Of a DNA stretch of 64,000 nt, positions 1-15,368 are shown one piece after another (the stretch's first letter is position 1; the number at the start of each line of letters is the position of its first letter). The translations under genes were made by a program, and so were the position numbers. Source of the DNA: Tahibacter soli (GTDB taxonomy: Bacteria; Pseudomonadota; Gammaproteobacteria; Xanthomonadales; Rhodanobacteraceae); contig NZ_JAOVZO020000015.1 in the NCBI RefSeq assembly GCF_025717065.2, positions 124,001 through 188,000 of the forward strand, written 5' to 3'. Under the pieces are notes generated by a model, which saw nothing but the letters and a program-made list of their open reading frames with translations, did no database searches and was not told the origin of the DNA.

Positions 1-1
1 C

Positions 2-1426
2 CGCCGGCGCAGCACCGGCGAGACGGCGATCGTCCTCACCGACGGCTACGAGGCGATCCGCGACGGCGCGCTGACGCTCGATGCGGTCGACGCCGAACTC
101 GCCGCGCTCGGCGCCGCGGCGCCGGACGACGGTTTCGCGACGCGCTGGCGGCGCGCGTTCTGGACCGAGATGCGCCGCGCGCTGCGCTGGGGCGACGCGA
201 ACGCCGAAGGCGCGGCCGATCCGGAACTCGCGGCGCTGCAGGACCCGCTCGACGCGAAGCTCGACCGCGTGCTGTCGTCGCAGCATCTGCGCTTCGAGGA
301 AAAATACGGCCCGGTGCCGCATAGCGAACAATTGCATACGTATAACGCGGGGCGTTCGTTCCGCGACGCCGACGATCGCGCCCGGCTGCTGCGCATCGTC
401 GCCACGCCGCCGACGCGCGGGCTGTATCCGGTCGACGCCGACTACGACTATCACATCGGGCTGCGCGGGCTGCTGCCCGGCGCCGCGCTTCCGCAGCGCT
501 TCGGCAGGGTCGAGGCCGCGAAGCCCGATGCGCAAACGCAGGCGATCGCGCGCGGCTGGACGTTCCTGCTCGGCCTTGCCAGCCTGTCGGAGCGCAACGA
601 CGGACTGATGGAACTCGAACCGCGCGCGGAACTCGAGCGCGAACTCCTCGAGGCCATGCTGCGATTTCCGCGTGCGCCGCAGCGGCGCGTCGGCGTCGCG
701 CTGCCGGCGCTCGCGCAGCGCTGGCTCGTGCGGGTCGTCGCGCTCGCGCTGGCGGAGGAGCACGCAAGTCTCGCCGCGCGCCGGCCGCGCGTCGACGACA
801 TCGTCGCGCTCTGCGCACGCGCGCAGCGCTTCGACGTCGCGACCGCGCCGAAGGAGCTCGCCGGCGTCGTCGACGCCGTGCGCGCGTACGCGGCGGCGCG
901 ATGGCCGCGCGGACGCATCGATGCCGAACTCGCGCTTTGGCGTGCGGGCCGGCGCGGGCCTGCGCGTCTGCAGCGGCTGACGGCGTTCGCATGGACCGCG
1001 TCGGCTCGCCGCTCAAGTGCGATCGCGACGGCGATCGTCGACGGCTTCGGCGGACGACCCTCGACGGCCGCGCGGCGGTTGTCGCTGCTCGACGCGTTCG
1101 TGCGCGCCGCGCCGCGACTCGCCGACGGCGTGCGGCTCCGGCTGGCGGCCATCGCGCGCGATGCGGCCGCGGTACTCGACGCGGCGGACGCCTGGCCGCC
1201 GGCGCTGCGGCGCGACCGGCCGGGCCTGTCGTTGCGGCTCGGTCTGCCGCTGCCGCGCGGCGCGCTCGCCGACGCGCTGGCGGAGCAGGCCGACGACGGC
1301 AGCTGGAACGCCGATCCGCCGCTCGCCGAACTGCCGGACTGGCAGGATCGCTACGTCCTGGCTATCGTGCAGGCCGGCGCAGCCGCGCTCGACATCCTGC
1401 AAGCCGTGGAGAACCGCGATGACTGA
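2..1426 (+). CDS. Hypothetical protein, 5' end outside the window
   Basis: The reading frame is open from the first complete codon (position 2) to TGA at 1424-1426, giving at least 474 residues; the true start lies upstream. An internal ATG at 170 is unlikely to be the start because the frame upstream has the same Arg/Ala-rich composition without a stop. I do not recognise a family. The protein looks soluble and mostly helical, with long Ala/Leu/Arg helices in the second half and no obvious signal peptide or membrane segment in the visible part. Its stop overlaps the start of the GNAT gene (1419-1421) by 8 bp, which suggests translational coupling and one transcript. Confidence 0.6.
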   Translation, partial: RRRSTGETAIVLTDGYEAIRDGALTLDAVDAELAALGAAAPDDGFATRWRRAFWTEMRRALRWGDANAEGAADPELAALQDPLDAKLDRVLSSQHLRFEEKYGPVPHSEQLHTYNAGRSFRDADDRARLLRIVATPPTRGLYPVDADYDYHIGLRGLLPGAALPQRFGRVEAAKPDAQTQAIARGWTFLLGLASLSERNDGLMELEPRAELERELLEAMLRFPRAPQRRVGVALPALAQRWLVRVVALALAEEHASLAARRPRVDDIVALCARAQRFDVATAPKELAGVVDAVRAYAAARWPRGRIDAELALWRAGRRGPARLQRLTAFAWTASARRSSAIATAIVDGFGGRPSTAARRLSLLDAFVRAAPRLADGVRLRLAAIARDAAAVLDAADAWPPALRRDRPGLSLRLGLPLPRGALADALAEQADDGSWNADPPLAELPDWQDRYVLAIVQAGAAALDILQAVENRDD

Positions 1427-1709
1427 TCACACCGGGCAATATCCGATCCGCCACGAACCCGACGCGCGCCGTTTCGTCGTCGTCGTCGACGGGCACGAGT
1501 GCGAACTCGTCTATCGCCTCGCCGGCGGCGTGATGAAGATCGTGCACACGGGCGTGCCGTCGGCCGTCGGCGGACGCGGCATCGCGGGCGAGCTCGTGCG
1601 CGCCGCGTACGACGCCGCGCGCGCGCAGGGCTGGAAGGTGATTCCGGCGTGCAGCTATGCCGCGGTGTGGGTCGAGCGGCATCCGGAATACGCCGATCTG
1701 GCGGGTTGA
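1419..1709 (+). CDS. Small GNAT-like N-acetyltransferase (COG2388 type)
   Basis: A 96-residue protein starting at the ATG that overlaps the upstream stop. It has the compact single-domain layout of YidJ/COG2388 proteins: a strand-rich N-terminal half (IRHEPDARRFVVVVDGHE), a short strand with VMKIVHTGVP, a acetyl-CoA pyrophosphate-loop-like GGRGIAGELV, a helix, then VIPACSYAAVWVERHPEY. The Cys/Ser/Tyr and final HPEY segment are typical of this family. The family presumably uses acetyl-CoA, but the acceptor is unknown. It lies in a same-strand run with the genes on both sides (20 bp before the next start). Family call good, substrate unknown. Confidence 0.8.
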   Translation: MTDHTGQYPIRHEPDARRFVVVVDGHECELVYRLAGGVMKIVHTGVPSAVGGRGIAGELVRAAYDAARAQGWKVIPACSYAAVWVERHPEYADLAG

Positions 1710-1729
1710 ACGAAACCCGGAGGTGCGAG

Positions 1730-2329
1730 ATGGGTACCCGCAATCCGAAAGTCGACGCGTACATCGCCAAGTCGGCCGAGTTCGCGCGGCCGATCCTCGA
1801 GCACCTGCGCGAGATCGTGCACGCGGCTTGTCCGGAAGTGGAAGAAGAGATAAAGTGGAGTTCGCCGCATTTCATGTATCGCGGCATGCTGTGCGGCATG
1901 GCCGCGTTCAAGCAGCACTGCGCGTTCGGCTTCTGGAAGGCCGCGCTCGTGGTGCCCGACGACAGGAACGACGAGGCGATGGGCAATTTCGGCTGCATCG
2001 CGACGGTCAAGGACCTGCCGCCGCGCCGCACGATCGAGGGCTACATCAAGAAGGCGATGAAGCTCAACGAAGACGACGTGAAGCCGGTGCGGCCGAAAAG
2101 CGGCGCGCCGAAGCCGCCGGTGGAACTGCCGGACGATCTGGCCGTCGCGCTGAAAAAGAACAAGAAGGCCGGGGCGACGTACGAGGCCTTCAGCCCCAGC
2201 GCGCGTCGCGAGTACGTCGAGTGGATCACCGAGGCCAAGCGCGAGGAAACGCGCGCCAAGCGCGTGGCGCAGGCCGTCGAGTGGATGGCCGAGGGCAAGC
2301 AGCGCAACTGGAAGTATCAGAACTGCTGA
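1730..2329 (+). CDS. DUF1801 / YdeI-OmpD-associated family protein
   Basis: 199 residues. I place the start at ATG 1730, preceded by a GGAGGTGCGAG ribosome-binding site. Residues about 15-110 match the DUF1801 fold (ILEHLREIVHAACPEVEEEI, then a conserved W/F-rich segment including HCAFGFWKAAL). Residues about 135-195 form the OmdA/YdeI helical tail: ELPDDLAVALKKNKKA, FSPSARREYVEWI and a basic RAKRVAQAVEWMAEG. Proteins of this two-part type are widespread and often annotated bacteriocin-protection or YdeI-like, with no settled biochemistry. The gene ends 13 bp inside the convergent gene on the minus strand. Confidence 0.8.
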   Translation: MGTRNPKVDAYIAKSAEFARPILEHLREIVHAACPEVEEEIKWSSPHFMYRGMLCGMAAFKQHCAFGFWKAALVVPDDRNDEAMGNFGCIATVKDLPPRRTIEGYIKKAMKLNEDDVKPVRPKSGAPKPPVELPDDLAVALKKNKKAGATYEAFSPSARREYVEWITEAKREETRAKRVAQAVEWMAEGKQRNWKYQNC

Positions 2330-3213
2330 CGCGGCGCGCGGCATGAAAAATCGTCGAAGGCGGCCGGCGCCGCCGTGTCGCGCGCCATCACGCGCCAATG
2401 GCCGCCGTCGCGCGCCAGGCGCAGCGGCAGCAGCTGCGGCTTGCCGTCGGCATCGGTGCGCCTGAGCACGATGTCGAAGCCGTTCGCGTCGTGCCAGCCC
2501 TTCGCGTCGGCGACGACGCGCGAACCCGCGACGCGCGCGCGGCACGCGAGCGCAAGGCTCGGACCTTGCGCGTCGAGGTCGGCGATCGCGACGGCCGCGG
2601 GCGCATTGAGGCTGTTGAGCACCGCGATGCGGCCGCCGCCGGGCGACAGCGCGGCGACGTCGCCGCCGTTGTGCACGAACGCGACCTTGCCGTTGTCGGC
2701 GCCGATCAGGAACGCGCCCGGCGAGTCATGCGCGAAGTCGATCGCGACGTGCAGCAGTCCGGTGTTCGCGATGCGACCGAGAAAGCGATGGCGCGCGCCG
2801 TCGCCGTCGGCGCTGCGCGTGGCCTTGATCGCGTAGTCGACGAAGCGCAGCGGCGTGCCGTTCGGCGGCGCGATGCGCAGCGTGCCGCCGTCGCGCGTGA
2901 CGAGTCCGTGCTCGGCGTCGATCAGGCGCGCTTCGGCTTGCGCGGCGCAGCGCGCGTCGTCGGCGCAATGCAGTGCGTCGCTCGCGAACGGCAGCGACGG
3001 ATCGCCTTCGGCAAGCGCCGGAGCGGCGAGGATCGCGGCCTCCGCGTCGGGTGCGAGCGCGACGATCGGAACGTCCGCGGTGTCGAGTTCGCGCACGCGC
3101 GACGACAGATCGACGACGCGCGGACTGTCGAAGCGCAGGCCGTCGTCCGGCGGCGCGGCGACGGACGATGCGGCGAAGGCAAGCGCGAAGAAGGCGTGGC
3201 GGGCTGGTTTCAT
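2317..3213 (-). CDS. Secreted hypothetical protein
   Basis: 298 residues from ATG 3213. I prefer this to the upstream in-frame Met because it puts a standard signal peptide at the N terminus (MKPARHAFFALAFAASSVAA, cleavage after VAA). The mature part is strand-rich and Asp/Ala-rich, with four Cys (CADDARC, one in LALACRA, one in FDDFSC) that could form disulphides in the periplasm. No family recognised. It is convergent with the YdeI-like gene (13-bp overlap) and divergent from the first CHAT gene, with about 148 bp between the two starts, so both promoters sit in that gap. Confidence 0.65.
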   Translation of the reverse strand: MKPARHAFFALAFAASSVAAPPDDGLRFDSPRVVDLSSRVRELDTADVPIVALAPDAEAAILAAPALAEGDPSLPFASDALHCADDARCAAQAEARLIDAEHGLVTRDGGTLRIAPPNGTPLRFVDYAIKATRSADGDGARHRFLGRIANTGLLHVAIDFAHDSPGAFLIGADNGKVAFVHNGGDVAALSPGGGRIAVLNSLNAPAAVAIADLDAQGPSLALACRARVAGSRVVADAKGWHDANGFDIVLRRTDADGKPQLLPLRLARDGGHWRVMARDTAAPAAFDDFSCRAPRQQF

Positions 3214-3301
3214 CGGCGTTCCGCGCAGGTCGTATCGATGTCGCAACGTGTTCGCGTGCACGAAGCGAACACGCGGCGACGCTATAGGGACGACGGCGAC
3301 T

Positions 3302-3317
3302 TTGTGCCAAAGTAGGC
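3302..3317 (+). promoter_or_regulatory. 16-bp motif shared by the two CHAT genes, copy 1
   Basis: TTGTGCCAAAGTAGGC occurs here 45 bp before the CHAT-1 ATG and again at 8463-8478, 50 bp before the CHAT-2 ATG. The flanks of the two copies differ, so the core looks selectively kept. TTGTGC resembles a -35 element but I see no convincing -10 at normal spacing, so it could instead be an operator. Function is inferred from position only. Confidence 0.45.
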
Positions 3318-3361
3318 GCCGTCGCAATGTGTTCCAGCCGGCCCGTTACAGCGGAGGCGCC

Positions 3362-6300
3362 ATGGAATCGAACGGGGGAAGGTGTCCGTGCCTCGCGCGG
3401 TTGGTCATGCGCGGGTTGATGGCAGTCGCGATCCTCTTGCCGTTCGTGTCGTATTGCGCCGCACCCGATGGCGCGCCGCCGAGGCTCGTCGACGGCACGC
3501 GCATCGAACGCAGCATGCCCGGCGATGCGCAGGACCGTCTGATCGTCGACGCGTCGCGCGGCGCGCTGGTGGTGATCGTCGAGCAGATCGGCGCGGACCT
3601 CGTCCTGCGTTGCGACAACGAAGCGCATGCGCGCAACTCGGCGACCGGCCGCTGGGGACCCGAAGTCGTCGTCGTTGAAAAGGCGTGCGACCTGTCGGTG
3701 CGCGCGCGCAGCGTCGGCATGCCGAGGATCGTCTATCGCGTCCGTGCGTTCGGGTTCGACAGCGCCGAAGGACGGCGCTTGCCGCCGCGTATCTGGAGAT
3801 TGTGGTCGCAGGGACACTACGACAGCGGAACCGAAGACACCAAGGGCCATACGGCCGCGTTGGAAAAACTGCGTCAGGTCGAACGCGCGGTTGCGGCGCG
3901 CGGAAGCAGCGACGATCGGCGCTATCTGCAATACGGCAACGCGCACATGCTGCGTCGCATGGGCAGGTATGCCGAAGCCATCGCGGCATACGATGCGCTG
4001 ACGAAAGGGTTGGACGCGAAGCGGCATTCGGTCTGGTTCGCGCGCGCGAGCAACGGCAAGGGATTGGCGCTGCGCGAACTCGACCGGTTCGAAGACGCCG
4101 ATCGCGCGTTTGCCGACGCGGTGCGTTACGGGGCGGACCGCAAGGACGCGTACGAATGGGTTTCGGCGCGGAACAACCGCTGTCTGATACTGCACCACTA
4201 CGGCCGGCTGGCCGAGGCGCGTGACTGCTACATCGCCGTGATTCCGCTCTACCGCGAGGCCGCGCCGAACCAGGTCGCCGTACCGATGCTCAACCTCGCG
4301 GCCGCCGCCGACACGCTCGGCGAGCCGGCGCTCGCGCTGAAGAACTATCGTGCAGCGCTCGAGTTGCGGCGTGCCGGCACGGATCGCAGCAGTCTCGCCA
4401 TCGTGCTGCTCAACCTCGCGAACCATGAAGCACAGACAGGCGCGTGGCCCGACGCGCTCAAGCACAGCCTGGAAGCGCAGCGCATCTTCGAAGCGCTCGG
4501 CGATCGACCGCGGACGACCAACGCGTTGCGGCTGCGCGGCTGGATCTATCGCGAGTTGGGTGAGGCGAGCCGTGGGCGCGAATACTACGAAGCCGCCTTG
4601 CGCGTCGCACAGGAGAGCAACGACCGCAACGCGATCGCGATGGCGAAGTCGGGGGTCGCGCGCAGCGATCCCGACGATGGCGCGGCCGCGGCGGCGCATC
4701 GCGAGGCGATCGCCTATTTCGTTGAAACACGGCAGTCCGGGTTTGCGAGCCAGGAATGGCTGATGCTCGCCGAGCGGCTAGATGCGATGAATGCAGGCAC
4801 TGCACGCGACGAGGCGTTGGCGGCCTGCGAAGCTTTGCTGCAAGCCAATGGCAATCGCCCGTACCGCGCGCATGCCGCGATGTTGCGTGGCCGCGTCGCG
4901 CTGCGCGAAGGCCGGCTCGACGAGGCGCAGGCGCGTGCTGAAGCGGCGATTGCGCTGCGCCGGCAGACGCGTGAGCCGGACGGTCTTGCCGATGCGCGTC
5001 TGCTCAAAGCACGCGTCGAGCGCCGACGCGGACGCGCCGATGCGGCCTTCGCCGAGATCGTGCGCGGGCTCGACGAACTACAGCGCGCCGAGCGCTTGCC
5101 GGGCAGCCCGATTCTCGCCGCCAATCTCTACGACCGCCGGATCGATCTGCTCGACGAGGCGACCGACATGCTGCTCGGCAGTGATGCGGCCAGCGAAGCC
5201 GATGTGGAGAGGGCGTGGACGCTGAAGTGGAAGTACTCGCGCATACCCGAAGCGGTGTCGCCCGCGCCGGCTGCAGCGGACGAGCGCGAGCTGGTCGACG
5301 AACTGCGCGCGAAAGTGATGCTGTTGTCCGGTTCGCGGGCGCCAGGATTCGTGAGTTCGTCCAAGCCATATACGTCCGAACAACTCGCCGAGATCGCAAC
5401 ACGCGTCGACGCCATCGAGTCGCAGCTCGACGCGCGGCGTGCTGTCGCCGCCGTCGGCGTTGTCGCGCCGCCGCTCGGTCTCGCTGCCGTTCGCGCGGCG
5501 CTTCGGCCCGGCGAGGCGTTCATCGCGATCAACCTCGGCGCGCGCACGAGCGGCGCCTGGGTCGTTACGACCGACGCCGTGCGCTGGGTTTCGCTGCCGA
5601 CCCGCGCCGACGTGATTCGCGCGACGCGGAACGTGGTCGAACGCCAGGGCAAGGCGGAGTTCGATGTCCTGTCGCGACAGTTGTCGCCGCTTGCCGTCGC
5701 GACGGCATCGGCGCGACGCCTGCTGATCCTGCCTGATGGCCCCTCGAACCTCGTTCCGTTTGCCGGCTTGGCCGACCGTGACGGCAAGTACTGGGTCGAG
5801 CGCGGCGCGATCGTGTTGCTCGCCGCGCCGCCGGCGTCGACAGCGCCGTTGCGACCGAGCGCGCTCGCGCCGAAGTTTCCGGTGGTCGTCTGGGGCGGCG
5901 GCGCGTCCGGGGAACCGGCGCTCGTGCAGAGCAGTGTGCGGGTGTATCGCTCCGGCGCCGACATGGCCGAGCTGCCGGCGGTCGCCGTCGAAATCGGCCT
6001 CGTCACACGCGTGCTCGGCGAACGGCGCGTGAGGCTCGGCGACCCGCGCGCGATTGCTGCGCCCGAGACGGACCGATGGATGTTGCACGTCGCCGGGCAC
6101 GGTCTGGCGAGTAGCGAGCATCCATACGCAGCGGCGCTTGCGCTGCCAAGCGAAGACGGATTCACGTTCATGAGCGCGCCGTCGCTCGCGCTCGGCGCCC
6201 GGCCGCCGAGCGTCGTGTTCGTCAACGTGTGCGAGGGCTTCTCGGGACGCCTGTTCGAATCGCAGCCGCCGTCGTCGTTCGCGCGCCGGTTTCTCGAAGC

Positions 6301-6508
6301 CGGTGCGAACGTCGTCGTCGCGGCGTCGTGGCCGATCGAAGACAGTCGCGCGGCACGCTTCGCCGCGCTCCTCTACACCGAACTCGAACGCGATCCGTCC
6401 GACGTCGCCGACGCGCTCGCGCGTGCGCAACGCACCGCGCTGCGGCACGGTGGTCTGCGCGAGCTGCGCAACTGGAGCGGGTATTCGGTGATTCGTTCGG
6501 ACGGGTGA
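3362..6508 (+). CDS. Exported TPR-CHAT caspase-like protein, paralogue 1
   Basis: 1048 residues from ATG 3362 (GGAGG-type site at 3352-3356). Order: an N-terminal hydrophobic signal (LMAVAILLPFVSYCAA); a beta domain of the PPC-like type at about 40-140; a long TPR region (about 160-700) with repeats such as RYAEAIAAYDAL and ALAALKNYR-like helices; a C-terminal CHAT domain (about 780-1040). The CHAT catalytic dyad is visible: H913 in HVAGHG and C957 in VFVNVCEG, followed by ASWPIED. CHAT domains are caspase-like cysteine proteases, usually cytoplasmic and controlled through their TPRs, so the export signal is notable. It is a paralogue of the gene at 8528-11650 with the same architecture. Substrate unknown; the two genes in between are candidate partners. 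Confidence 0.9.
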   Translation: MESNGGRCPCLARLVMRGLMAVAILLPFVSYCAAPDGAPPRLVDGTRIERSMPGDAQDRLIVDASRGALVVIVEQIGADLVLRCDNEAHARNSATGRWGPEVVVVEKACDLSVRARSVGMPRIVYRVRAFGFDSAEGRRLPPRIWRLWSQGHYDSGTEDTKGHTAALEKLRQVERAVAARGSSDDRRYLQYGNAHMLRRMGRYAEAIAAYDALTKGLDAKRHSVWFARASNGKGLALRELDRFEDADRAFADAVRYGADRKDAYEWVSARNNRCLILHHYGRLAEARDCYIAVIPLYREAAPNQVAVPMLNLAAAADTLGEPALALKNYRAALELRRAGTDRSSLAIVLLNLANHEAQTGAWPDALKHSLEAQRIFEALGDRPRTTNALRLRGWIYRELGEASRGREYYEAALRVAQESNDRNAIAMAKSGVARSDPDDGAAAAAHREAIAYFVETRQSGFASQEWLMLAERLDAMNAGTARDEALAACEALLQANGNRPYRAHAAMLRGRVALREGRLDEAQARAEAAIALRRQTREPDGLADARLLKARVERRRGRADAAFAEIVRGLDELQRAERLPGSPILAANLYDRRIDLLDEATDMLLGSDAASEADVERAWTLKWKYSRIPEAVSPAPAAADERELVDELRAKVMLLSGSRAPGFVSSSKPYTSEQLAEIATRVDAIESQLDARRAVAAVGVVAPPLGLAAVRAALRPGEAFIAINLGARTSGAWVVTTDAVRWVSLPTRADVIRATRNVVERQGKAEFDVLSRQLSPLAVATASARRLLILPDGPSNLVPFAGLADRDGKYWVERGAIVLLAAPPASTAPLRPSALAPKFPVVVWGGGASGEPALVQSSVRVYRSGADMAELPAVAVEIGLVTRVLGERRVRLGDPRAIAAPETDRWMLHVAGHGLASSEHPYAAALALPSEDGFTFMSAPSLALGARPPSVVFVNVCEGFSGRLFESQPPSSFARRFLEAGANVVVAASWPIEDSRAARFAALLYTELERDPSDVADALARAQRTALRHGGLRELRNWSGYSVIRSDG

Positions 6509-6580
6509 GAGATTCGGTCTTCTCAATGCAATGGATCATCGCAGCGCAGTGCTGCGAACATTTGATGAGGAGATACGACG

Positions 6581-6940
6581 ATGGCGAATATTCTGGGCGA
6601 GTGGCCGGTCAAGACGCACGTGCCGGTGCCGGGGCTTTTTATGTATCCGCTGATCCAGGCCGGCCACAAGGTCGTTATCAAGGACGAGCATGGCCAGCTA
6701 TATTTCGAAGCGTACTCGAGCGTAAACCCCACGACGCCCTATTTTCGAATCAAGGTCGAGTACAGCGGTTCCACCGGGGCAGTCCAAGGGAAAGAACGGT
6801 ACATGCCCACCGGCGTCGAGTATTCGGTGACGGCGTACATCAAGGAATTCGGCGACTACGCGTACATCCTTGGGTACGCGCAAACCCACACGACCGCGGA
6901 AGACAGTGGCGGGCAGTGGGACGGCAATCGCCCGAAGTAA
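6581..6940 (+). CDS. Small orphan protein between the CHAT genes
   Basis: 119 residues from ATG 6581, with a good GAGGAG ribosome site 9-14 bp upstream. No signal peptide or membrane segment. The predicted structure is mostly beta with many aromatic residues (VVIKDEHGQLYFEAYSS, YFRIKVEYSG, YAYILGYAQTHTT), ending in a Gly/Asp-rich polar tail. I do not recognise the family. GC content is visibly below that of the flanking genes, as in the next gene. It follows CHAT-1 by 72 bp and precedes the next gene by 39 bp, so all three could share a transcript. It could be a target, adaptor or inhibitor of the CHAT proteins, but nothing in the sequence proves this. Confidence 0.6.
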   Translation: MANILGEWPVKTHVPVPGLFMYPLIQAGHKVVIKDEHGQLYFEAYSSVNPTTPYFRIKVEYSGSTGAVQGKERYMPTGVEYSVTAYIKEFGDYAYILGYAQTHTTAEDSGGQWDGNRPK

Positions 6941-6979
6941 CCGCATCGCACATCGTACCCTCTCGCATCCCCGTTCCGG

Positions 6980-8305
6980 ATGAAGCCCGCCATGATTCAC
7001 TACCCGCCTGAAAAAAATTACTGCGTCAACATTCTCGCGATCTTCGAAAAGAATGTCGGCGATGGCGAATGGTCTTTCAATCACCTGCTCGACGCCGTGA
7101 GAAACTGGCGTGGCTTCGGATATCGCTTCGTCGTACGCGAGCACGTGCGTTTGAAAGACAAGCCGATCACCGAAGAACTCGTCGAAGACGTCGACGAAAT
7201 GTGGTTCTTCGGTACGGCGTTGTGCAACAAGCCGGAAAACAGCCTCCCACTAAGCGATGACGAAGTTGCCGTCATCAACGCACGAATGATCGTCGGCGTT
7301 GGCGTATTCGCCACGGGCGACCATGAGCAGATCGGTGCGTGCCTGTGCGAACGGATTCCACGCGTCGACAGGATGAGGGTCTGGCGAGGTGCCGATGCGC
7401 CTCGCCAGATGCCGCCGGATTCGTACAACTCGAACCTGCGTTCGCCATATCGCGATGTGATCGACTACAAGCTCACCACGATGTACGGGGACGTGGAAAC
7501 TGACGACAGCGACACTTCCGCGAAGCAGATTTGGACAACCCGCGACGACGCATCGGGCACGGCGCACGAACTGTTCCAGCTCGGCTATGTGGGAACCGAA
7601 AAACAATGGGTAAGGTTCCTGCCGGATCACATGCACGAGGGGCGGCTTCGCGACTATTCCGCAACCGACGATCCGGCGATTTTCAGTCAAACCTACCCTG
7701 GTGCGCCGCTTCCGCGCATCGTCGCGTACGCGAATCGCATGAGTTTCAGCATGGGACGCAAAGGACGGTCCCTTGAATATCCGGTGGTTTCCGTCTACGA
7801 GTCCGAGAACTGCGAGGGCAATATCGTCGTCGATTCGACGTTCCATCACTGGACCGATTCGAACGCGCTGCGCCTGCGTTTTTCGCCGACGTGGCTGCAC
7901 GTCGAGCAGTTTGCGATCAACGTCGCGAACTGGCTGCTGGGTTGGAGAGGGCGCGACAAGGTAAAAAAGGGAATTATTGAGTATATCGCAACAACGAGCG
8001 AGCAGAGGAAGAGATTGATCGAAGATGAGGCGATTGAAGAGGTCGCTGACGACATCGGTAAGGTGGCCAACTATATGAGCCGGCAATTGGGCGAGCATCG
8101 AATTGTCGTCGATGCGCTGGAGCGAATTCTGTACGGGAACGTACTAAGCGCGAAGAACAGGAAGAACGAGATGGAACTTGACACACGCATTCGCGCAGGA
8201 TGGCCACAGTTGAAGGGCGCGAACCTCAAGGATCTGCGCGAGACCGGCAAGTTGCCGAGCGTCATACTCGGACTGACCTTCGCAGGCCAGGCACTTCCGG
8301 AATAG
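6980..8305 (+). CDS. Orphan protein with GATase1/ThuA-like N-terminal region
   Basis: 441 residues from ATG 6980 (a second Met four codons on is also possible; ribosome site weak). No signal peptide. Residues about 10-130 look like a Rossmann-like class I amidotransferase/ThuA fold: VNILAIF, VDEMWFFGTA, VGVGVFATGDHEQIG. The usual nucleophile elbow Cys is not evident. The middle has a DHMHEG motif and an IVVDSTFHHW motif like those of uncharacterised ThuA-fold proteins. The last 120 residues are charged helices (EQRKRLIEDEAIEEVADDIG) that may form a coiled coil or a bundle. GC is low for this genome, suggesting acquisition. Placement between two CHAT paralogues suggests a functional link. Fold assignment is moderate, function unknown. 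Confidence 0.6.
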   Translation: MKPAMIHYPPEKNYCVNILAIFEKNVGDGEWSFNHLLDAVRNWRGFGYRFVVREHVRLKDKPITEELVEDVDEMWFFGTALCNKPENSLPLSDDEVAVINARMIVGVGVFATGDHEQIGACLCERIPRVDRMRVWRGADAPRQMPPDSYNSNLRSPYRDVIDYKLTTMYGDVETDDSDTSAKQIWTTRDDASGTAHELFQLGYVGTEKQWVRFLPDHMHEGRLRDYSATDDPAIFSQTYPGAPLPRIVAYANRMSFSMGRKGRSLEYPVVSVYESENCEGNIVVDSTFHHWTDSNALRLRFSPTWLHVEQFAINVANWLLGWRGRDKVKKGIIEYIATTSEQRKRLIEDEAIEEVADDIGKVANYMSRQLGEHRIVVDALERILYGNVLSAKNRKNEMELDTRIRAGWPQLKGANLKDLRETGKLPSVILGLTFAGQALPE

Positions 8306-8462
8306 CGGGAGCGGTGCGGCTGTTTCGGACGATCGAACGGAGCTGCCGCCGCAAGTGCGACTGTGGATTTCCCGTCGCCACTGTATCGAGCCTCTCAACG
8401 AACGACGCGAACACGTCGCGTTCGCGCAGCGCGCACTTGCGCGATCGGCCTCCAACGCGCGA

Positions 8463-8478
8463 TTGTGCCAAAGTAGGC
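8463..8478 (+). promoter_or_regulatory. 16-bp motif shared by the two CHAT genes, copy 2
   Basis: Exact second copy of TTGTGCCAAAGTAGGC, inside the 222-bp gap (8306-8527) before CHAT-2. Nothing else in the gap is recognisable. The similar distance to both CHAT start codons supports a shared promoter or operator and co-regulation. Confidence 0.45.
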
Positions 8479-8527
8479 AAAGCGCGCGAACGGCGACCAC
8501 CAGCGGGTCGCCCGAGACGGGGGTCGG

Positions 8528-11500
8528 ATGGCGCAGAAGGAAACGATACGGCTCGCCGCGCGAGCCGCCTGGGTCGTCATTCTCGCGACGGCGTGCGCCG
8601 CCGTGCACGCCGATGTGCCGCGGCTCGCGGACGGCGGCACTCTCGAACGCACGATATCGACCGGCGTCGACGATCGCATCGCGATCGACGCGAACGCGGG
8701 CCCGCTCGTCGTCGTCGTCGCGCAGAACGGCGTCGACCTGTCGCTGCAGGTCGACGGCGACGCGCACGTGCGCAACGCGCCGACGGGACGCTGGGGCGAC
8801 GAGCTCGCGATCGTCGAACGCGATGCGGAAATCGTCGTGCGCACGCGCGCCACCGGCGTCGCGAACGCGCGCTATCGCGTTCGCGCGTTCGCGCTCGGCG
8901 GCGCGGAAGGCCGCCGCCTGCCCGCGCCGGTCTGGCGGCTGTGGGCGCAGGCGTACTACGACGCGGGCGTCGATGCCGTCGCGGGCTATCCGGAAGCGGC
9001 CGGCCGCTTGCGCGGCGTCGAGGCCGCGCTGGCCGCGAGTGCCGACGGCGGCGGCGAATCGCTGCGCGAAGTGCGGCTCGGCATCGCCAATCTGCTGCGC
9101 CGCGCGATGAAGCACGACGAGGCCATCGCGGCGTACGACGCGATGCTCGCGACGCTCGACGAACGCGAACAGCCGCAATGGGTCATGCGCGCGAGCAACG
9201 GCAAAGGCTTGTCGTTGCGCGAGAAAGCGATCTATCCGGAGGCCGACGCGGCGTTCGCGCGCTCGGAGGCGATCGGCGACGCCGGGCACGATCCGTTCGA
9301 ATGGGTCTCGGCGCGCAACAACCGCTGTCTGATCAAGCAGCATCTCGGCCACCTCGCGGCGGCGCGCGACTGTTATCGCGACGTCATTCCGGCGTACCGC
9401 AAGGTCGCGCCGGAACAGGTCGCCGTGCCGCTGCTGAATCTCGCTGCCGCTGCTGCGGCGCTCGGCGAGCCGGAAACCGCGCTGCCGAACTTTCACGAAG
9501 CGCTGGCGCTGCGCCGCGCCGGCACCGATCGCGTGAGCCTCGGCGTCGTGCTGACGAACCTCGCGGTGTTCGAGGCGCGCACCGGCGCATGGCCCGAGGC
9601 GCTCGCCCACAGTCTCGAGGCGCAGAACGTGTTCGAGTCGATCGGCAATACCGCGCGTCTGGCCGGCGTGCTGCTCGTGCGCGGCTGGATCTACGAAAAT
9701 CTGCACGAATCGTCGCGTGCCCGCGAATACTTCAACCGCTCGCTGGCGCTGGCGAACAAGACCGGCGACAAGGGCGCGATCGCCGCGGCGCGGTCGGTGC
9801 TCGCGGGCAGCGAGACCGACGATGCGCTCGCCGCCGCGGCGCATCGCGACGTCATCGACTGGTACGCGCAAACCGGCCAGTCGGAGTGGGAGATCGACGA
9901 GCGGCTGGAGCTCGCGCGTCGCCTCGACGCGCTCGGCGACGCCGCGGGGCGTACGGCGGAACTGGCGAAGATCGATGCGCTGCTGGCTGACGGTGCGAGC
10001 CGCGTGCAGCGCGCGCGGGCCGCAATGCTGCGCGCGACGGTGGCGCAGCGCGAGGGCCGCGACGCCGACGCGCTCGTGCTGGTCGATCAGGCGATCGCGC
10101 TGCGCGTGCAGGCGCGCCAGCCCGACGGAGTCGCCGCGGCGCGGCTGGCAAAAGCGCGTATCGAGCGGCGCGCGGGCCGTGCCGACGCGGCGCTCGCCGA
10201 ACTCGAGCGCGCGCTCGCCGAACTGCGGCACGCCGAGCGGTTGCCGGGCAGCCCCGTGCTGGCCGCGAACCTGCTCGATCGCCGCGGCGAACTGATCGAC
10301 GAGGCGACCGATCTCGTGCTCGGTCCGGAGCCCGGCACCGCGGCCATCGAACGCGCCTGGGCGCTGCGCGGCAGGTTCGCGTCGTCGCCGGCCGCGTTCG
10401 CGCCGGTCGACGCGGCGCAACGCGAACTGCTCGCCGAACTGCGCGCGAAGGTGATGGTGCTGGCCGGCGCGTCGTCGCCGCGCGTGGCAGCGGCCGCGAA
10501 GCCTCAGGACGCCGACGAGCAGGCCGCGGTGGCGCGCCGCATCGAGGCGATCGAATCGGAACTCGACGCGCGCGCCGCGCAGGAACGGCGCGCCGCTTCG
10601 CGCACGGCGTTGTCGCTGCCGGCGCTCGCGGCGGCGCTCAAGCCGGGCGAGGCGTTCGCGGCGCTCGCGCTCGGCGAACGGCGCAGCGGCGCATTCGTCG
10701 TCGCGCCCGACGGTTATCGCTGGGTGACGCTGCCGCGCCGCGGCGTGCTCGACGCGGCGACGGTCGAGTCGGTCTCGCGGCCCGACGCGTCGACGCTCGC
10801 ACCGCTGTCGCAGGCGCTCGTTCCGCTCGCGCAGGCGCTCGGTTCCGCGCGCCGCGCGATCATCGTGCCGGACGGCGCGTCGCATCTCGTGCCGTTTGCG
10901 GCGCTGCGCGACGGCGACGGCCGCTACTGGGTCGAACGCCGCAGCGTCACGCTGCTGTCCGAGCCGCCGTCGCTGCCGGCGCAGCTGCGACCGCTCGCCG
11001 TCTCGGCGGGGTATCCGGTCGTCGTGTGGGGTTCAGGCCGCACCGCCTCCGGCCGCATCGTCGCCGATCGGGCGGTGTTTCGCTCGGGCGCGAAGCTCGC
11101 GCCGCTGCCGGGCGCGTCGATCGAGCTCGCGCTGATCGAAACCGCGCTCGGCGAATCGCGCGTGAGCCTCGGCGATTCGTACGCGCGCGTCGTCGCGCCG
11201 AACGCGGCGAACTGGGTGCTGCACGTGGCGGCGCACGGCATCGCCAGCGCGGCGCATCCGCAGGCCTCGGCGCTCGCGCTGCCCGACGCCGACGGCGGCG
11301 CGTTCACGCTGCTCGGCGGCGGCGAAGTAGATTTGGGTAAAATTCCGCCTCGTCTCGTTTTTTTGAACGCGTGCGAAGGCGCTGCCGGCCGCATGTTCCT
11401 GACGCAGGCGCCGTCGTCGCTCGCGAGCGATTTCCTGCGCGCCGGCGCCGATGCCGCGCTCGCCGCCGCGTGGCCGGTGGAAGACGCGCAGGCCGCGCGT

Positions 11501-11650
11501 TTCGCGCAGCTCGTGTACGCCGCGCTCGAGCAGCGCAGCGACGATGCGGCCGAGGCGCTCGCGCTCGCGCAGCGCACGGTGCTGACGCGCCGCCGCGGCG
11601 CGCCGCCGCGCGACTGGGGCGGCTATTCGCTACTCGTGCGACCGCGCTGA
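8528..11650 (+). CDS. Exported TPR-CHAT caspase-like protein, paralogue 2
   Basis: 1040 residues from ATG 8528 (GGGGGT just upstream). A clear signal peptide (ARAAWVVILATACAAVHA, cleavage before DVPRL) is followed by a PPC-like beta domain, about 500 residues of TPRs and a C-terminal CHAT domain. The dyad is H903 (HVAAHG) and C949 (FLNACEG), followed by AAWPVED. It aligns with paralogue 1 along its whole length: RWGDELAIVERDAEI here against RWGPEVVVVEKACDL there, and the shared RNNRCLI in the TPRs. The tandem pair most simply arose by duplication, with the two low-GC genes arriving later or being retained between. The 3' end overlaps the convergent DUF1028 gene by 21 bp. Confidence 0.9.
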   Translation: MAQKETIRLAARAAWVVILATACAAVHADVPRLADGGTLERTISTGVDDRIAIDANAGPLVVVVAQNGVDLSLQVDGDAHVRNAPTGRWGDELAIVERDAEIVVRTRATGVANARYRVRAFALGGAEGRRLPAPVWRLWAQAYYDAGVDAVAGYPEAAGRLRGVEAALAASADGGGESLREVRLGIANLLRRAMKHDEAIAAYDAMLATLDEREQPQWVMRASNGKGLSLREKAIYPEADAAFARSEAIGDAGHDPFEWVSARNNRCLIKQHLGHLAAARDCYRDVIPAYRKVAPEQVAVPLLNLAAAAAALGEPETALPNFHEALALRRAGTDRVSLGVVLTNLAVFEARTGAWPEALAHSLEAQNVFESIGNTARLAGVLLVRGWIYENLHESSRAREYFNRSLALANKTGDKGAIAAARSVLAGSETDDALAAAAHRDVIDWYAQTGQSEWEIDERLELARRLDALGDAAGRTAELAKIDALLADGASRVQRARAAMLRATVAQREGRDADALVLVDQAIALRVQARQPDGVAAARLAKARIERRAGRADAALAELERALAELRHAERLPGSPVLAANLLDRRGELIDEATDLVLGPEPGTAAIERAWALRGRFASSPAAFAPVDAAQRELLAELRAKVMVLAGASSPRVAAAAKPQDADEQAAVARRIEAIESELDARAAQERRAASRTALSLPALAAALKPGEAFAALALGERRSGAFVVAPDGYRWVTLPRRGVLDAATVESVSRPDASTLAPLSQALVPLAQALGSARRAIIVPDGASHLVPFAALRDGDGRYWVERRSVTLLSEPPSLPAQLRPLAVSAGYPVVVWGSGRTASGRIVADRAVFRSGAKLAPLPGASIELALIETALGESRVSLGDSYARVVAPNAANWVLHVAAHGIASAAHPQASALALPDADGGAFTLLGGGEVDLGKIPPRLVFLNACEGAAGRMFLTQAPSSLASDFLRAGADAALAAAWPVEDAQAARFAQLVYAALEQRSDDAAEALALAQRTVLTRRRGAPPRDWGGYSLLVRPR

Positions 11651-12859
11651 CAGGCGCCGGTCGTCCGGCCAGCGCTTGCGCGCGAGGCGCAGCTGCGTTC
11701 GCGCGTCGCGCGCGAGACCGAGCGCGGCGAGCGCATCGATGCGCACGAGCGCCGACCGCGATGTCTCGTCGCGCGCCGGCAGCACGCCCAGCGCCTCGGC
11801 CGGCCGTTGCGCCTCGACGAGCCGGGCAGCGAGCGAGGCGCGCGCGGCCGCGGGTGCCTGCGCGTCGAGCGCGCGCAGATCGGCGAGCGCCGCATTGCGC
11901 TGCGCGTCGTCGACGTAGCGGGCGAACAGCGGATTGGCGCCGAGCGCGGCGTAACGACCCGCGCCGAGTTCGACCGCGCGCCACGCATCGTTCTGCGCGA
12001 ACGCCGCCGCGAGGTATTGCAGCGCCAGCTGCGGCCGTTCGATCTCGATGGCGACGCGCGCCGCCTGCAGCCACGCGCGCGGCCAGGCCGGCGCCTTCGC
12101 GACCGCGCCGATCAGGAGATTCGCGGCGCGTTCGAACTCGCCGCGCCTGGCGGCCTGTCGCGCCGCGACGATGTCCTGCCGTGCGGCGTATTGCCCGTAC
12201 AGCGAGGTCAGTGCCGCGATCGGATCGCTCGCGTGATCGACGCGCAGGTCGATATCGATCGGCCAGCCGTCGGTCGTGCGCACGAGGAGCGCGGCCGATT
12301 CGCGCCCGGTCGTCTGCCCGCCGGCGCGTTCGCCGGCAGCGAGCGATGCGAGCAGGCGTTCGGCGAGCGGGCCGCGCGCGGCGAGAAACGCCGACTCCAT
12401 CGCGGCGATCACTTGCGGGCCGGCGAGGCCGTTGCCCTGCACGCTGTAGCCCGCGCCGCCGCGCGACCCGGCCCACGGCGACGCCGCGACGTCGCGGCCG
12501 GTATGCACGGCGCTCGTACCGTCGACGCGCACGAGCGCCACCTGACGGGCTTGGATCGTCTCGCCGTCGAAATCGCCGTCGTCGGCGAGGATGCGCGCGA
12601 GCGCGTCGGCCGGCGTCGCGCCGGCCGCCATCAGCGCGAGCGCCTGCGGGCCGTAGTGCGGGTTCGTCTCGAACTGCGACACGAGCGCGCCGACGCCGGC
12701 CTGCGCGGCCGGCACGCTCGCGCCGACGGCGAGGTTGTTCGTCTGCACCGCGACGCCGCAGGCGCGTGTCGCGGCGTCGCAGGCGACGATCGAGTAGGTC
12801 GCGTGCGCCGGTGCGGCGGCGGCGAGCAACAGCGGCAACCATCGGCGCAAGGCGGGCAT
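11630..12859 (-). CDS. Secreted DUF1028 Ntn-hydrolase-like protein
   Basis: 409 residues from ATG 12859, chosen because it gives a signal peptide (WLPLLLAAAAPAHA). The mature start TYSIVACDAATRACGVAVQT is the DUF1028 N terminus, a family placed in the Ntn-hydrolase superfamily. Other family blocks seen: TNNLAVGASVPAAQAGVGA, GYSVQGNGLAG, and RTTDGWPIDIDLRVDH near residue 220. The C-terminal ~170 residues are TPR-like helices, an extension seen in some members. Possible peptidase or amidase, acting in the periplasm; substrate unknown. Same strand as the M14 carboxypeptidase gene, whose stop is 52 bp upstream, so the two may be co-transcribed for peptide breakdown. Confidence 0.85.
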   Translation of the reverse strand: MPALRRWLPLLLAAAAPAHATYSIVACDAATRACGVAVQTNNLAVGASVPAAQAGVGALVSQFETNPHYGPQALALMAAGATPADALARILADDGDFDGETIQARQVALVRVDGTSAVHTGRDVAASPWAGSRGGAGYSVQGNGLAGPQVIAAMESAFLAARGPLAERLLASLAAGERAGGQTTGRESAALLVRTTDGWPIDIDLRVDHASDPIAALTSLYGQYAARQDIVAARQAARRGEFERAANLLIGAVAKAPAWPRAWLQAARVAIEIERPQLALQYLAAAFAQNDAWRAVELGAGRYAALGANPLFARYVDDAQRNAALADLRALDAQAPAAARASLAARLVEAQRPAEALGVLPARDETSRSALVRIDALAALGLARDARTQLRLARKRWPDDRRLSARSHE

Positions 12860-12911
12860 CGGGCGACTCCGTTCGGGAATCGCGCTTCGATGCCGTCCGC
12901 GGCGCGACGGT

Positions 12912-14684
12912 TTAGTCCGCCGGCGCGCTGTCGACGCGCAGCACGGGATAGAGATTGAAGCGCTCGTCCCACGACGAATGCCGGCGCGCGAAGAACGCAA
13001 GACGCGCGCTCGCGTTCTTGGCGAACGCCGGGTCGTCGGCGAGCTTTTTGTTGAACGCCTCGGCGAGCGCCGGATCGGCCTTGAGCTGCGCGCGCGCAAC
13101 GTCCTCGGCGACGTAGTCTTCCATGTATTCCTTCTGTTCGAACGCGCCGTTGAACAGGCCCCACGCGGCGAGCGCGTCGGGCGCGGCCGGCTCGAGCAGC
13201 GCGACGACGATGCGCGAGCGCGCCTGCGCGATCGGCACGAACAGCGCGCCGGCGCCGACGTCGCGCGTCTCGTTCTTCCAGTCGCCCGTGAGCGTCGCGC
13301 GCTGGTGACCTTCGACCGGCTGGCCCGAGAACGCGGCGCCGTCGGCGCGGAACGTCTGCGCGGCGAGCGACGCGGGCCGCTTCAGCGCGCGGAACTCGAC
13401 GCCGTGCGCGGCGAGCCGCGCGCCGACTTCTTCGGCGAACGCGGCCGGCACGACATAGCCGGCCTTCGGCGCGTCGACGCTGCGATCGGGCACGACTTCG
13501 TCGCGCAGCGGCACTTTCCAGATTTGCGGTTTTTTCTCGTCGTAGCGGGTCATCAGCGCGCCGGAGATTTCCGACGGCGTGCGCGTGTACGCGTAGCCTC
13601 GGAAATCGATCGTACGCGTCGCTTCGGTCGCCTTGTAGTCGAGCGGCACGCGCGTGCCGCCGAGTTGCGTCGCGCGCGCGTCGGCTTCGTGCTGCAGCTT
13701 GCGCCATTGCGCGCCGCGCTCGGCGGTGAGTTCGAGCACGTCGACGATCGTGTTGCGCGTGATGCGAACGCGCGTCGGGTAGTCCTTCCACGAATGCGTT
13801 TCGACGAGCATGCCGAAGCGGTTGCGCAGCGGCAGGTAGCCGGTCGAGAAGCGCGGCGGCGGCACGCCGTCGACGAAGCCCGAGGCCGGATCGTCGGAGA
13901 CGACGAACGACGGATAGAACGTCAGCGGCAGCGAACCCTGTTTGGCGAGCTTGCCGGCGGTGTCGTCGCGCAGCGCGCGGCCGGCCTTGCGCAGCGCGTC
14001 GTCGCCGGAATGCGCCGGCTCGACCTGGATCGACACGTCGTGCTCGAACTGCGCGCCGTCCGTCACATGCAGGTCGATGTACGCGACGGGATCCCAGGCG
14101 TTGACGAGGCCGAGCATCGCGCGCATCTCGGGCGCGTCGGCCTTGAGGTAGTCGCGGTTCAAATTGTAGTTCTGTGCGGTCGTGCGCCAGCCCATTTCTT
14201 CCGGGCCGCGCTGGTTCGGCCGGTTCCAGCGGCCGAAGCGCTCGTGCCCGTCGATGTTGAACACCGGCACGAAGACGAGCACCTGTTTGGCGAGCGCGCC
14301 CTTCGCCGCTTTCCCGGAGAGCGCCTCGCGCAGCGCGAGAAAGCCCGCGTCCTTGCCGTCGATTTCGCCGGCGTGGATGCCGCCCTGGATCAGGAGCACC
14401 GGCAGCGCCTTGGCGCGCGCCTCGTCGGGCGTCAGCGCGCCGGCCCTCGACGCGACGAGCGCGAGCATCGGCCGGCCCTCGGGCGTGCGGCCGAACTCGA
14501 TGCAGCGCACGGCGTCCGGGTACGCCTTGTGGAAACGTTCGCACAGCGCCGCGACTTCGTCGTAGCGGCCGGTGCGTTTGAAGCCGGACTGTTCGGCGAC
14601 GGTGGCGAGCGGATCGGCGGCGGCGAGCGCGTGGCTTGCGCCGGCGGTCGCGACGAGCGCGGCGAGGAGGCGGGAGAGGTTCAT
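12912..14684 (-). CDS. Secreted M14-family zinc carboxypeptidase
   Basis: 590 residues from ATG 14684 with a signal peptide (LLAALVATAGASHALAA). M14 zinc ligands are visible: HAGEIDGKDA (His and Glu, around residue 105), and the third His in VAYIDLHVTDG (around residue 205). The substrate-side Arg/Asn region is represented by NLNRDYLKADAPE. The rest (about 330-590) is a long C-terminal region with a WGLFNGAFEQKEYMEDY motif typical of this bacterial subgroup, which is much longer than pancreatic carboxypeptidases. Predicted to remove C-terminal residues from peptides in the periplasm or outside. Lies 52 bp upstream of the DUF1028 gene on the same strand. Confidence 0.88.
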   Translation of the reverse strand: MNLSRLLAALVATAGASHALAAADPLATVAEQSGFKRTGRYDEVAALCERFHKAYPDAVRCIEFGRTPEGRPMLALVASRAGALTPDEARAKALPVLLIQGGIHAGEIDGKDAGFLALREALSGKAAKGALAKQVLVFVPVFNIDGHERFGRWNRPNQRGPEEMGWRTTAQNYNLNRDYLKADAPEMRAMLGLVNAWDPVAYIDLHVTDGAQFEHDVSIQVEPAHSGDDALRKAGRALRDDTAGKLAKQGSLPLTFYPSFVVSDDPASGFVDGVPPPRFSTGYLPLRNRFGMLVETHSWKDYPTRVRITRNTIVDVLELTAERGAQWRKLQHEADARATQLGGTRVPLDYKATEATRTIDFRGYAYTRTPSEISGALMTRYDEKKPQIWKVPLRDEVVPDRSVDAPKAGYVVPAAFAEEVGARLAAHGVEFRALKRPASLAAQTFRADGAAFSGQPVEGHQRATLTGDWKNETRDVGAGALFVPIAQARSRIVVALLEPAAPDALAAWGLFNGAFEQKEYMEDYVAEDVARAQLKADPALAEAFNKKLADDPAFAKNASARLAFFARRHSSWDERFNLYPVLRVDSAPAD

Positions 14685-14780
14685 CGACGGTACCGTGGGA
14701 GTGCGGAACCGTCGATGTTAGTTCGCGTGCGCCGATGTGGATACGGCTGGACGATACCGCTTTGGCGCGTTTGCGGCAGT

Positions 14781-14808
14781 CCGCCCGCCGCGGTTTCGCG
14801 GCGGGCGG
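14781..14808 (-). terminator. Hairpin downstream of the small membrane gene
   Basis: Perfect 12-bp GC-only stem (14781-14792 pairs with 14797-14808) with a GTTT loop, 25 bp after the stop of the gene at 14834-15253. There is no clear U tract, so efficiency is uncertain. Confidence 0.5.
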
Positions 14809-14833
14809 CGGGTGTCGTGTCGGGGATGGATCG

Positions 14834-15253: not shown

Positions 15254-15330
15254 GAGTTTCCTCCGGTTGGGTCGCGAACGGAACGCGTCAGGGACAGCGA
15301 CGCGAACATAACCCATCGAAGGATGCCTGT

Positions 15331-15360
15331 GCGACGCCCGGAGCGGGGGCCGGGCGTCGC
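15331..15360 (-). terminator. Hairpin after the secreted protein gene
   Basis: Perfect 11-bp stem GCGACGCCCGG / CCGGGCGTCGC with an 8-nt loop, starting 9 bp past the stop at 15369. Position fits a transcription stop or mRNA 3'-end stabiliser; no U tract follows. Confidence 0.5.
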
Positions 15361-15368
15361 GGCGATGC

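Follow-up and report, generated by a model that had tools for sequence, protein, structure and literature searches.

The question of what exported caspase relatives act upon is raised by a locus of Tahibacter soli in which two TPR-CHAT proteases, CHAT-A and CHAT-B, flank two genes of lower GC content coding for proteins of 119 and 441 residues (Table 1; the window is the whole 64,000-nucleotide stretch of DNA that was analysed). The best-represented TPR-CHAT protease in the literature found is Craspase, an RNA-guided complex, which therefore acts inside the cell. The genes described here recur elsewhere as an apparently envelope-directed TPR-CHAT with fixed partners: the small tailed protein is a concrete substrate candidate and the 441-residue protein, from an uncharacterised family, is a candidate for the output enzyme, so that the question of targets becomes testable. 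The locus is, in addition, a pointer to a ThuA-fold family missing from Pfam.

Table 1. Features of the locus, in positions of the window
Feature	Position	Strand	Basis
CHAT-A, TPR-CHAT with export-like N-terminus, 1048 aa	3362..6508	+	Pfam CHAT and TPR, dyad, start, hydropathy, tree
119-residue small partner with a divergent body and the C-terminal tail EDSGGQWDGNRPK	6581..6940	+	Tail common to small genes adjoining 441-type genes
Predicted GATase1/ThuA-like protein, 441 aa, helical C-terminal region	6980..8305	+	AlphaFold2, Foldseek, invariant residues, relatives
CHAT-B, second TPR-CHAT with export-like N-terminus, 1040 aa, divergent paralogue	8528..11650	+	Pfam, dyad, tree, hydropathy

Layout of the locus and its two proteases

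The original prediction of twin CHAT proteases bracketing two orphan genes is borne out by Pfam matches and by coordinates running from 3362 to 11650, and so is the lower GC content of the orphans, at 58.3% for the small gene and 56.5% for the 441-type gene versus 68.7% for CHAT-A, 73.6% for CHAT-B and 69.1% for the window. Intergenic gaps measure 72 bp between CHAT-A and the small gene, 39 bp between the small and 441-type genes, and 222 bp between the latter and CHAT-B. The frame first assigned to CHAT-A stands and its start moves to the preferred ATG, position 3302 being a TTG in that frame. Neither of the two flanking genes that were tested is conserved across the genus (8 Tahibacter genomes): when compared with the other seven genomes, one has no relative and the other has one only in genome G004, on a different contig from the genes of interest there. 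No match to the locus was found among plasmid or phage sequences in the mobile-element search, which returned one weak match to a viral contig.

Both proteases match the CHAT model PF12770 over its cut-off (E 2.2e-29 for CHAT-A, 8.8e-36 for CHAT-B) as well as TPR models, and their His/Cys dyads are intact at exactly the residues claimed, H913/C957 and H903/C949, respectively. By PF12770 and the dyad they are classed as CHAT peptidases, with protease activity being predicted. In PADLOC they match weakly only (TPR, PDC-M16B, PDC-M71B, BovA), and the PPC-like domain attributed to them was not confirmed, no PPC model matching either protein at E ≤ 1 in the Pfam scan. An N-terminal hydrophobic stretch is present in both, with a 14-mer hydropathy of 2.24 in CHAT-A and 2.33 in CHAT-B, and their predicted export is a reading of this stretch. 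By a crude measure, a hydrophobic N-terminus occurs in 84 of 97 Lysobacterales CHAT ORFs (six of the 103, with their upstream end cut, were excluded); because of this frequency, and because a link between CHAT and ECF σ factors is already in print, the idea that export would make the system one of a new type is weakened. CHAT-A is 60% identical to the CHATs of genomes G004 and G007, and CHAT-B 50% identical to CHAT-A and to the other Tahibacter CHATs; CHAT-A is the counterpart of the single CHAT found in the corresponding T. aquaticus and T. harae loci.

The 441-residue protein and its small partner

The 441-residue protein has no Pfam model at E ≤ 1 and no PADLOC match at E ≤ 0.01, and neither a ThuA nor a GATase model is among the Pfam families matched by 68 members of its family at E ≤ 1. 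Sequence searches of solved structures with two profiles gave nothing convincing. Its AlphaFold2 model (pLDDT 75.9, pTM 0.77) has as top Foldseek matches the ThuA-like structures 4jqs (E 4.5e-4, TM 0.50) and 4pxy (E 5.4e-4, TM 0.51; TM by target length), followed by a SpuA-type amidotransferase at E 3e-3, with 4e5v also matched. Thus, the GATase1/ThuA fold proposed at the outset is moderately supported as a prediction, and the family would be a ThuA-fold family outside Pfam coverage. Invariant residues in the 68 sequences include G113, D114, H115, H196, D216, H217, H219, E220, D285, H289 and H290. None of the 22 invariant columns holds a Cys, C123 being only nearly invariant and lying outside the FATGDH motif, and the invariant nucleophile Cys that marks class I glutamine amidotransferases is absent from the family across these sequences; judging by the conserved residues, the protein is perhaps a metal hydrolase. 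An alternative start of its gene, ATG 6992, would agree with the starts of two Tahibacter relatives.

The 119-residue protein belongs to no family in Pfam (E ≤ 1), NCBIfam, PADLOC (E ≤ 0.01) or PHROGs. Its structure model was set aside at a pLDDT of 43.8, and its description as a beta protein was not confirmed by so poor a model. Its sole relative detected by sequence search is the small gene of G004 (E 8e-4), the remaining small genes beside 441-type genes having been identified by position and tail. The tails of these genes read EDSGGQWDG, SESSTGQWDG, AESGGEWDG, EDSGGQWNG and, twice, EDSGGTWTG. Other Lysobacterales TPR-CHATs adjoin different small genes together with S8 subtilases or animal-type haem peroxidases; small-gene tails in the S8-type cassettes read DDGSWxGD in three cases and DEGSYTGQ in one, and hhalign finds no homology between the bodies of the S8-type small proteins and those of the 441-type ones (probability 0.2%).

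A general tail motif, written post hoc, is found in 29 of 85 CHAT-adjacent versus 3 of 194 other small genes; the gene calls behind some of the 29 are doubtful, and the three controls include the partner, in a later slot, of the L142 CHAT. The motif was not replicated in a hold-out of 40 regions (39 analysed, the short L023 being excluded, and five without a CHAT match), where it occurred in 1 of 20 versus 0 of 79 genes (p 0.20). The CHATs of the hold-out are mostly lower-scoring, many come from another subclade and nine from outside the order, a composition that may explain the failure. The motif, having been drawn up after inspection of the data, is not claimed as a general feature because of this hold-out result. 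A RiPP-like reading of the tail was dropped, no supporting genes being seen.

Recurrence of the trio

A scan of genome contigs with the single 441-residue sequence gave no match, and one with the family alignment gave 197 loci, of which 80 were taken for examination. Among the eight Tahibacter genomes, relatives of the 441-residue protein (45-48% identity) occur, besides in T. soli, in G004 and G007, and these are also the only others with CHATs 50-60% identical to CHAT-A or CHAT-B. The genes stand in the identical order CHAT, small, 441-type in the window and in both genomes, and the expected co-occurrence of orphans and CHATs was therefore not refuted. The linkage extends to two MAGs: a Woeseiaceae contig (L056) with the order σ, anti-σ-like, CHAT, small, 441-type, and a 6.4 kb Blastocatellia contig (L060) with the order 441-type, small, CHAT, in which an 85-residue ORF is called between the small gene and a CHAT cut by the contig end. 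In total, the trio was found in five genomes of three lineages and in two gene orders. The four-gene order with twin CHATs was seen only in T. soli, the other trios having one CHAT, and was rejected as a unit; the recurring unit is a trio of one TPR-CHAT, a small tailed protein and a 441-type protein.

CHATs number 135 matches in 151 Lysobacterales genomes, about one per genome, and the chance of one lying within 5 kb of a gene is roughly estimated at 0.2%. Trio CHATs do not form one clade: the trio label needs three changes on the CHAT tree, where the starred branches force at least two, and since these CHATs occupy separate parts of the tree, more than one origin of the linkage is probable. 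The 441 family itself is rare, occurring in 3 of 299 genomes of a phylum sample. No CHAT accompanies three of the eight small+441 pairs (L049, L050 and L051, with 18-19 kb examined), nor does one match at 77 of the 84 family loci examined (up to 9 kb on each side, less on short contigs); therefore, this enzyme family mostly operates without a CHAT nearby. Both counts, and the failed hold-out of the tail, speak against an obligate trio.

Competing readings and related systems

The three genes probably work as one system. In the reading tentatively preferred here, at a little under even chances, the locus is a conserved module of TPR-CHAT, small protein and ThuA/GATase1-fold protein with a second, divergent protease copy, and the small protein, we infer, is its control partner. 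This protein would pair with the 441-residue enzyme, even where a CHAT is absent, and would offer the TPR-CHAT its C-terminal tail of Gly, acidic and Trp residues. In response to a cue from the envelope or from stress, the protease would cleave either the small protein or else the enzyme, and thereby switch on or off an enzyme likelier to be a metal-dependent hydrolase than a glutaminase. Two proteases could provide redundancy or two inputs. The partners have no visible export signals, whereas the protease is apparently exported; the N-terminal stretch could serve to anchor the protease in the membrane, or some other route could take the partners out. In a wider and rather improbable version, the exported TPR-CHATs of Lysobacterales and their relatives would be an undescribed polymorphic system under ECF σ control, with a constant protease, an interchangeable enzyme (ThuA-fold hydrolase, subtilase or haem peroxidase) and a fast-diverging adaptor that would match the two, dock its tail in the TPRs and, when cleaved, fire the enzyme at the envelope.

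It is, on balance, somewhat unlikely that the small and 441-residue proteins are a self-sufficient pair, an enzyme with its cofactor or inhibitor, next to CHATs that are merely co-regulated in an envelope-stress regulon and make no physical or proteolytic contact. The CHAT-less pairs and loci, and the differing predicted compartments of CHATs and partners, fit such a pair, but the tight spacing in the window and the adjacency to CHATs from separate tree parts, in two gene orders, do not. Distinctly improbable is that the CHAT is the protease of an ECF σ pathway, as proposed for ECF54 (PMC8999054, in its passage on that group) and supported for Csx29, Csx30 and CASP-σ (excerpt of PMC10028731), the small and 441-type genes being regulon output and not substrates. 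In its favour, 67 of 103 CHAT loci have a σ-like match no more than 3 kb away, versus 5 of 74 441-family loci without the trio (controls not taxon-matched, and eight of the CHAT loci having supplied HMM seeds), σ-like and anti-σ-like matches occur together at 39 of the 103, and T. aquaticus shares the order of L056, the anti-σ matches of both being below the curated cut-off. However, the σ HMM has no match in positions 1-16000 of the window, and thus none near either CHAT; CHAT-A and its T. harae counterpart (L048) have neither σ nor anti-σ matches beside them, none were recognised among genes called on the L060 contig, and σ regulation alone leaves the conserved small gene unexplained. A horizontally acquired low-GC pair beside unrelated chromosomal CHATs, in a functionally meaningless neighbourhood, would suit the GC contrast (56-58% versus 69%) and the flanking genes, yet the association returns in five genomes spread over three lineages and, within Tahibacter, the genomes with the pair are exactly those with a CHAT of the same group, making this disfavoured explanation highly improbable.

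Within a literature search that left most subscription journals outside its reach, only the ECF54 sentence and the Craspase work bear on an exported CHAT-ECF system. ECF54 is an ECF σ factor with CHAT, subtilase and carboxypeptidase genes in its genetic context and a proposed proteolytic control, treated in a passage on σ factors without an anti-σ factor (PMC8999054). The likeness is that CHAT genes here adjoin ECF σ genes and sometimes a subtilase. In contrast, anti-σ-like genes occur in T. aquaticus, L056 and at 41 of the 103 CHAT loci, the window is without a σ match, and the passage mentions neither a small tailed gene nor a ThuA-fold protein; an ECF σ gene adjoining a CHAT and free of anti-σ is found in none of the window, T. 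aquaticus and L056. In Craspase, from type III-E CRISPR loci with the TPR-CHAT Csx29, Csx30 and CASP-σ, the protease cleaves a neighbour-encoded protein (PMC10028731, excerpt), and TPR-CHATs with adjoining partner genes and an ECF-like σ are common to both systems, the latter being absent from the window and present in T. aquaticus and L056. Csx29, however, acts in a complex with Cas7-11 and upon activation by RNA (same excerpt), whereas export-like N-termini mark the proteases described here, and a Pfam scan of eight window genes gave no Cas family. With ThuA proteins and class I glutamine amidotransferases the 441 family shares its predicted fold (4jqs, 4pxy, 4e5v), and differs from them in lacking a Pfam model and an invariant Cys and in having extra invariant His, Asp and Glu residues and a helical C-terminal region. 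Finally, the S8 subtilase and haem peroxidase cassettes also combine an export-type TPR-CHAT and an enzyme with a small gene placed between the two, the peroxidase ones with σ- and anti-σ-like matches nearby, while their enzyme is another and their small-protein bodies have no detectable homology to those of the trio.

The CHAT locus and its recurrence

The 6.65 Mb genome of Tahibacter soli holds seven CHAT matches, and the locus in the window consists, as the original prediction correctly described it, of two TPR-CHAT proteases with intact dyads (CHAT-A and CHAT-B, 50% identical) around two genes of low GC content, the window as a whole standing at 69.1%; the PPC domain also ascribed to both proteases found no Pfam support. 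The successive spacers from CHAT-A through the 119-aa and 441-aa genes to CHAT-B measure 72, 39 and 222 bp.

Features of the window and of related loci
Feature	Position	Remarks
CHAT-A	3362-6508	TPR-CHAT; dyad H913/C957; hydrophobic N-terminus
Small gene, 119 aa	6581-6940	between CHAT-A and CHAT-B; GC 58.3%
441-aa gene	6980-8305	between CHAT-A and CHAT-B; GC 56.5%
CHAT-B	8528-11650	TPR-CHAT; dyad H903/C949; hydrophobic N-terminus
DUF1028 protein	11630-13099	opposite strand, just 3' of CHAT-B
M14 zinc carboxypeptidase	12912-14684	opposite strand, just 3' of CHAT-B
Second small+441-type pair of T. soli	L049:8733-10324	G000:C18, about 747.7-749.3 kb
Region with a 441-family gene 3' of a sigma-like gene	L070:1153-10380	same place as L052

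Relatives of the 441-aa protein occur in five of 61 genomes including its own, namely T. soli (two copies), T. aquaticus DSM 21667, T. harae P2K, G039 (two copies) and G040. In T. aquaticus and T. harae, a CHAT 60% identical to CHAT-A and a small gene precede the 441-aa relative; the other five Tahibacter genomes, one of them only 87% complete, carry neither such a relative nor an equally close CHAT. The family is rare, being present in only 3 of 299 genomes of a phylum sample. A profile scan of 84,980 species, with one genome per species, yielded 197 related loci, and among the 80 of these that were listed, a CHAT model built in this analysis and run on the flanking DNA examined detected CHAT in six: two from Tahibacter, L056, L060, and the actinobacterial L092 and L100, which were excluded from the trio count because their CHAT lies kilobases off. 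In L056, from a Woeseiaceae MAG, the order is ECF sigma (220 aa), anti-sigma-like (241), CHAT (1075), small (120) and 441-type (488), and in L060, from a Blastocatellia MAG, 441-type (489), small (132), a called 85-aa ORF and a CHAT ending at the contig end. When the window, L049, L050 and L051 are added to the 80 listed of 197, any CHAT is found in 7 of 84 loci and the trio of TPR-CHAT, tailed small protein and 441-type protein in 5 of 84. The conserved core of the neighbourhood is smaller than the original prediction described, and it extends beyond the genus.

A CHAT tree built by a quick method from 140 C-terminal regions unites the four Tahibacter genes in a single group with support 95, and places L056, on a long branch, and L060 elsewhere. 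Overall, the 441-linked label is clustered beyond what chance gives (10 of 500 shuffles reached an equally low value), since Tahibacter supplies four of its six rows. It nevertheless requires three changes, at least two of them forced by well-supported branches. The linkage has thus probably arisen more than once, and this speaks for a working relation between the genes. In the tree, CHAT-B branches as the sister of a group made up of CHAT-A and the two single Tahibacter CHATs, and is therefore an old or fast paralogue; no closer relative was found among the 61 genomes searched.

The 441-aa family and the small protein

No Pfam family matched more than two of 68 family members, and there was no match in NCBIfam or PADLOC for the three members tried or in PHROGs for the two tried. 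With an AlphaFold2 model of the 441-aa protein made from the 68 sequences (pLDDT 75.9), Foldseek ranked ThuA-like proteins first (E 4.5e-4), with SpuA-type amidotransferases (E 3e-3) and glutaminase domains of CTP synthase (2e-2 and weaker) among the hits that came next. The invariant residues are G113 D114 H115, G119, R128, M132 R133, W135, H196, P215 D216 H217, H219 E220 G221, A249, G280, D285, H289 H290, N295 and N314. No cysteine is invariant among the 68, so that glutaminase chemistry is unlikely; the family may possess a metal site. Most of the family members detected are larger proteins, commonly of about 560 aa, with no accompanying CHAT; within four genes of them, protein clusters taken by eye for sensor kinases and response regulators recur (14 and 13 loci). 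In L070, the 441-family gene lies downstream of the sigma-like gene, of a gene judged by eye to be protein-kinase-like and of two whose products appear to be secreted. Near several solo family genes (L104, L120, L062, L076) recurs a protein that we take to resemble a vanadium haloperoxidase/PAP2 relative.

A sequence search with the 119-aa protein found only the T. aquaticus copy. Small genes adjoining 441-type genes in the Lysobacterales keep, with small departures, the C-terminal tail (E/S)(D/S)S(G/T)G(Q/E/T)W(D/N/T)G, outside which identity falls to about 18-32%. The second small+441-type pair of T. soli bears the same tail, with no CHAT in the 19 kb examined around it. A Gly/acidic tail motif, written after inspection, occurs in 29 of 85 genes beside CHAT versus 3 of 194 others, and did not replicate in a hold-out (1/20 vs 0/79, p 0.20).

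Other TPR-CHAT cassettes and the sigma link

Four Tahibacter genomes (L142, L143, L144 and L145, from T. harae, T. aquaticus, G002 and G001) encode another TPR-CHAT followed by a small gene and an S8 subtilase, assigned by PF00082 in the last three and in L142 by an HMM built from them. Their small-gene tails read DDGSWxGD or DEGSYTGQ, and the bodies share no detectable homology with the 441-type small proteins. An animal-type haem peroxidase, a small gene lacking the tail and a CHAT stand in a row in L154, L191, L204, L216, L219 and, outside the Lysobacterales, L275; L149, L220 and L225 match the peroxidase without this order (PF03098 was run on L149 and L154 only, and an HMM derived from this pair served for the others). 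The ordered cassettes have anti-sigma-like and mostly also sigma-like matches close by. A group of CHATs belonging to one family, f8 (L234, L243, L244, L245, L248, L251, L257 and others), has a different context in common, with genes encoding about 312 and 277-309 aa upstream, often a 245-aa gene downstream, and no adjoining sigma matches.

At E<=1e-15, 135 CHAT matches occur in 67 of 151 Lysobacterales genomes. The loci surveyed comprised the window, L047, the T. harae locus L048, 20 picked from CHAT searches and 80 from a score-ordered order-wide list, leaving out loci already included and several at contig ends. Within 3 kb of CHAT, 67 of these 103 loci have a sigma-like match, 41 an anti-sigma-like match and 39 both, as judged by HMMs seeded by eye, partly from eight of the same loci; an NCBIfam/Pfam check, covering T. 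aquaticus and L056, placed sigma over and anti-sigma below cut-off. The comparison set, 441-family loci without the trio, which span many phyla, has a sigma match within 3 kb in 5 of 74. By a crude measure, a 14-mer of mean hydropathy of at least 1.6 within the first 140 ORF residues, 84 of 97 CHAT ORFs carry an N-terminal hydrophobic stretch versus 4 of 52 sigma genes; the same measure is positive in 16 of 68 441-family members and in two of the three 441-type ORFs of Tahibacter in their called form, and it fails to detect CHAT-A if the whole ORF is taken.

Proposed mechanism and known systems

The small protein and the 441-aa protein are the constant pair, which CHAT joins in five of eight cases (the window, T. 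aquaticus, T. harae, L056 and L060, and not L049-L051). This pattern favours a small protein that would act both as partner of the 441-aa enzyme and as docking or cleavage target of the protease. TPR domains can bind C-terminal peptides, and the tail of the small protein may bind the TPR domain in this way. As the original prediction pointed out, the proteases look exported and the two proteins encoded between them look cytosolic, a mismatch of compartments.

Searches of the literature and of family databases (Pfam, NCBIfam, PADLOC, PHROGs) found neither the trio variant nor the 441 enzyme family described. A TPR-CHAT with partner genes and an ECF link is, however, a known kind of system. In Craspase, the CASP-sigma inhibitor Csx30 is cleaved by Csx29 (PMC10028731), and the likeness lies in a protease with partner genes and a sigma factor of ECF-like type. 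For ECF54, control by proteolytic enzymes was proposed on the strength of CHAT, subtilase and carboxypeptidase proteins in its neighbourhood (PMC8999054), the last recalling the M14 carboxypeptidase near CHAT-B; here the likeness is a CHAT neighbouring an ECF sigma factor, with control through proteolysis proposed there.
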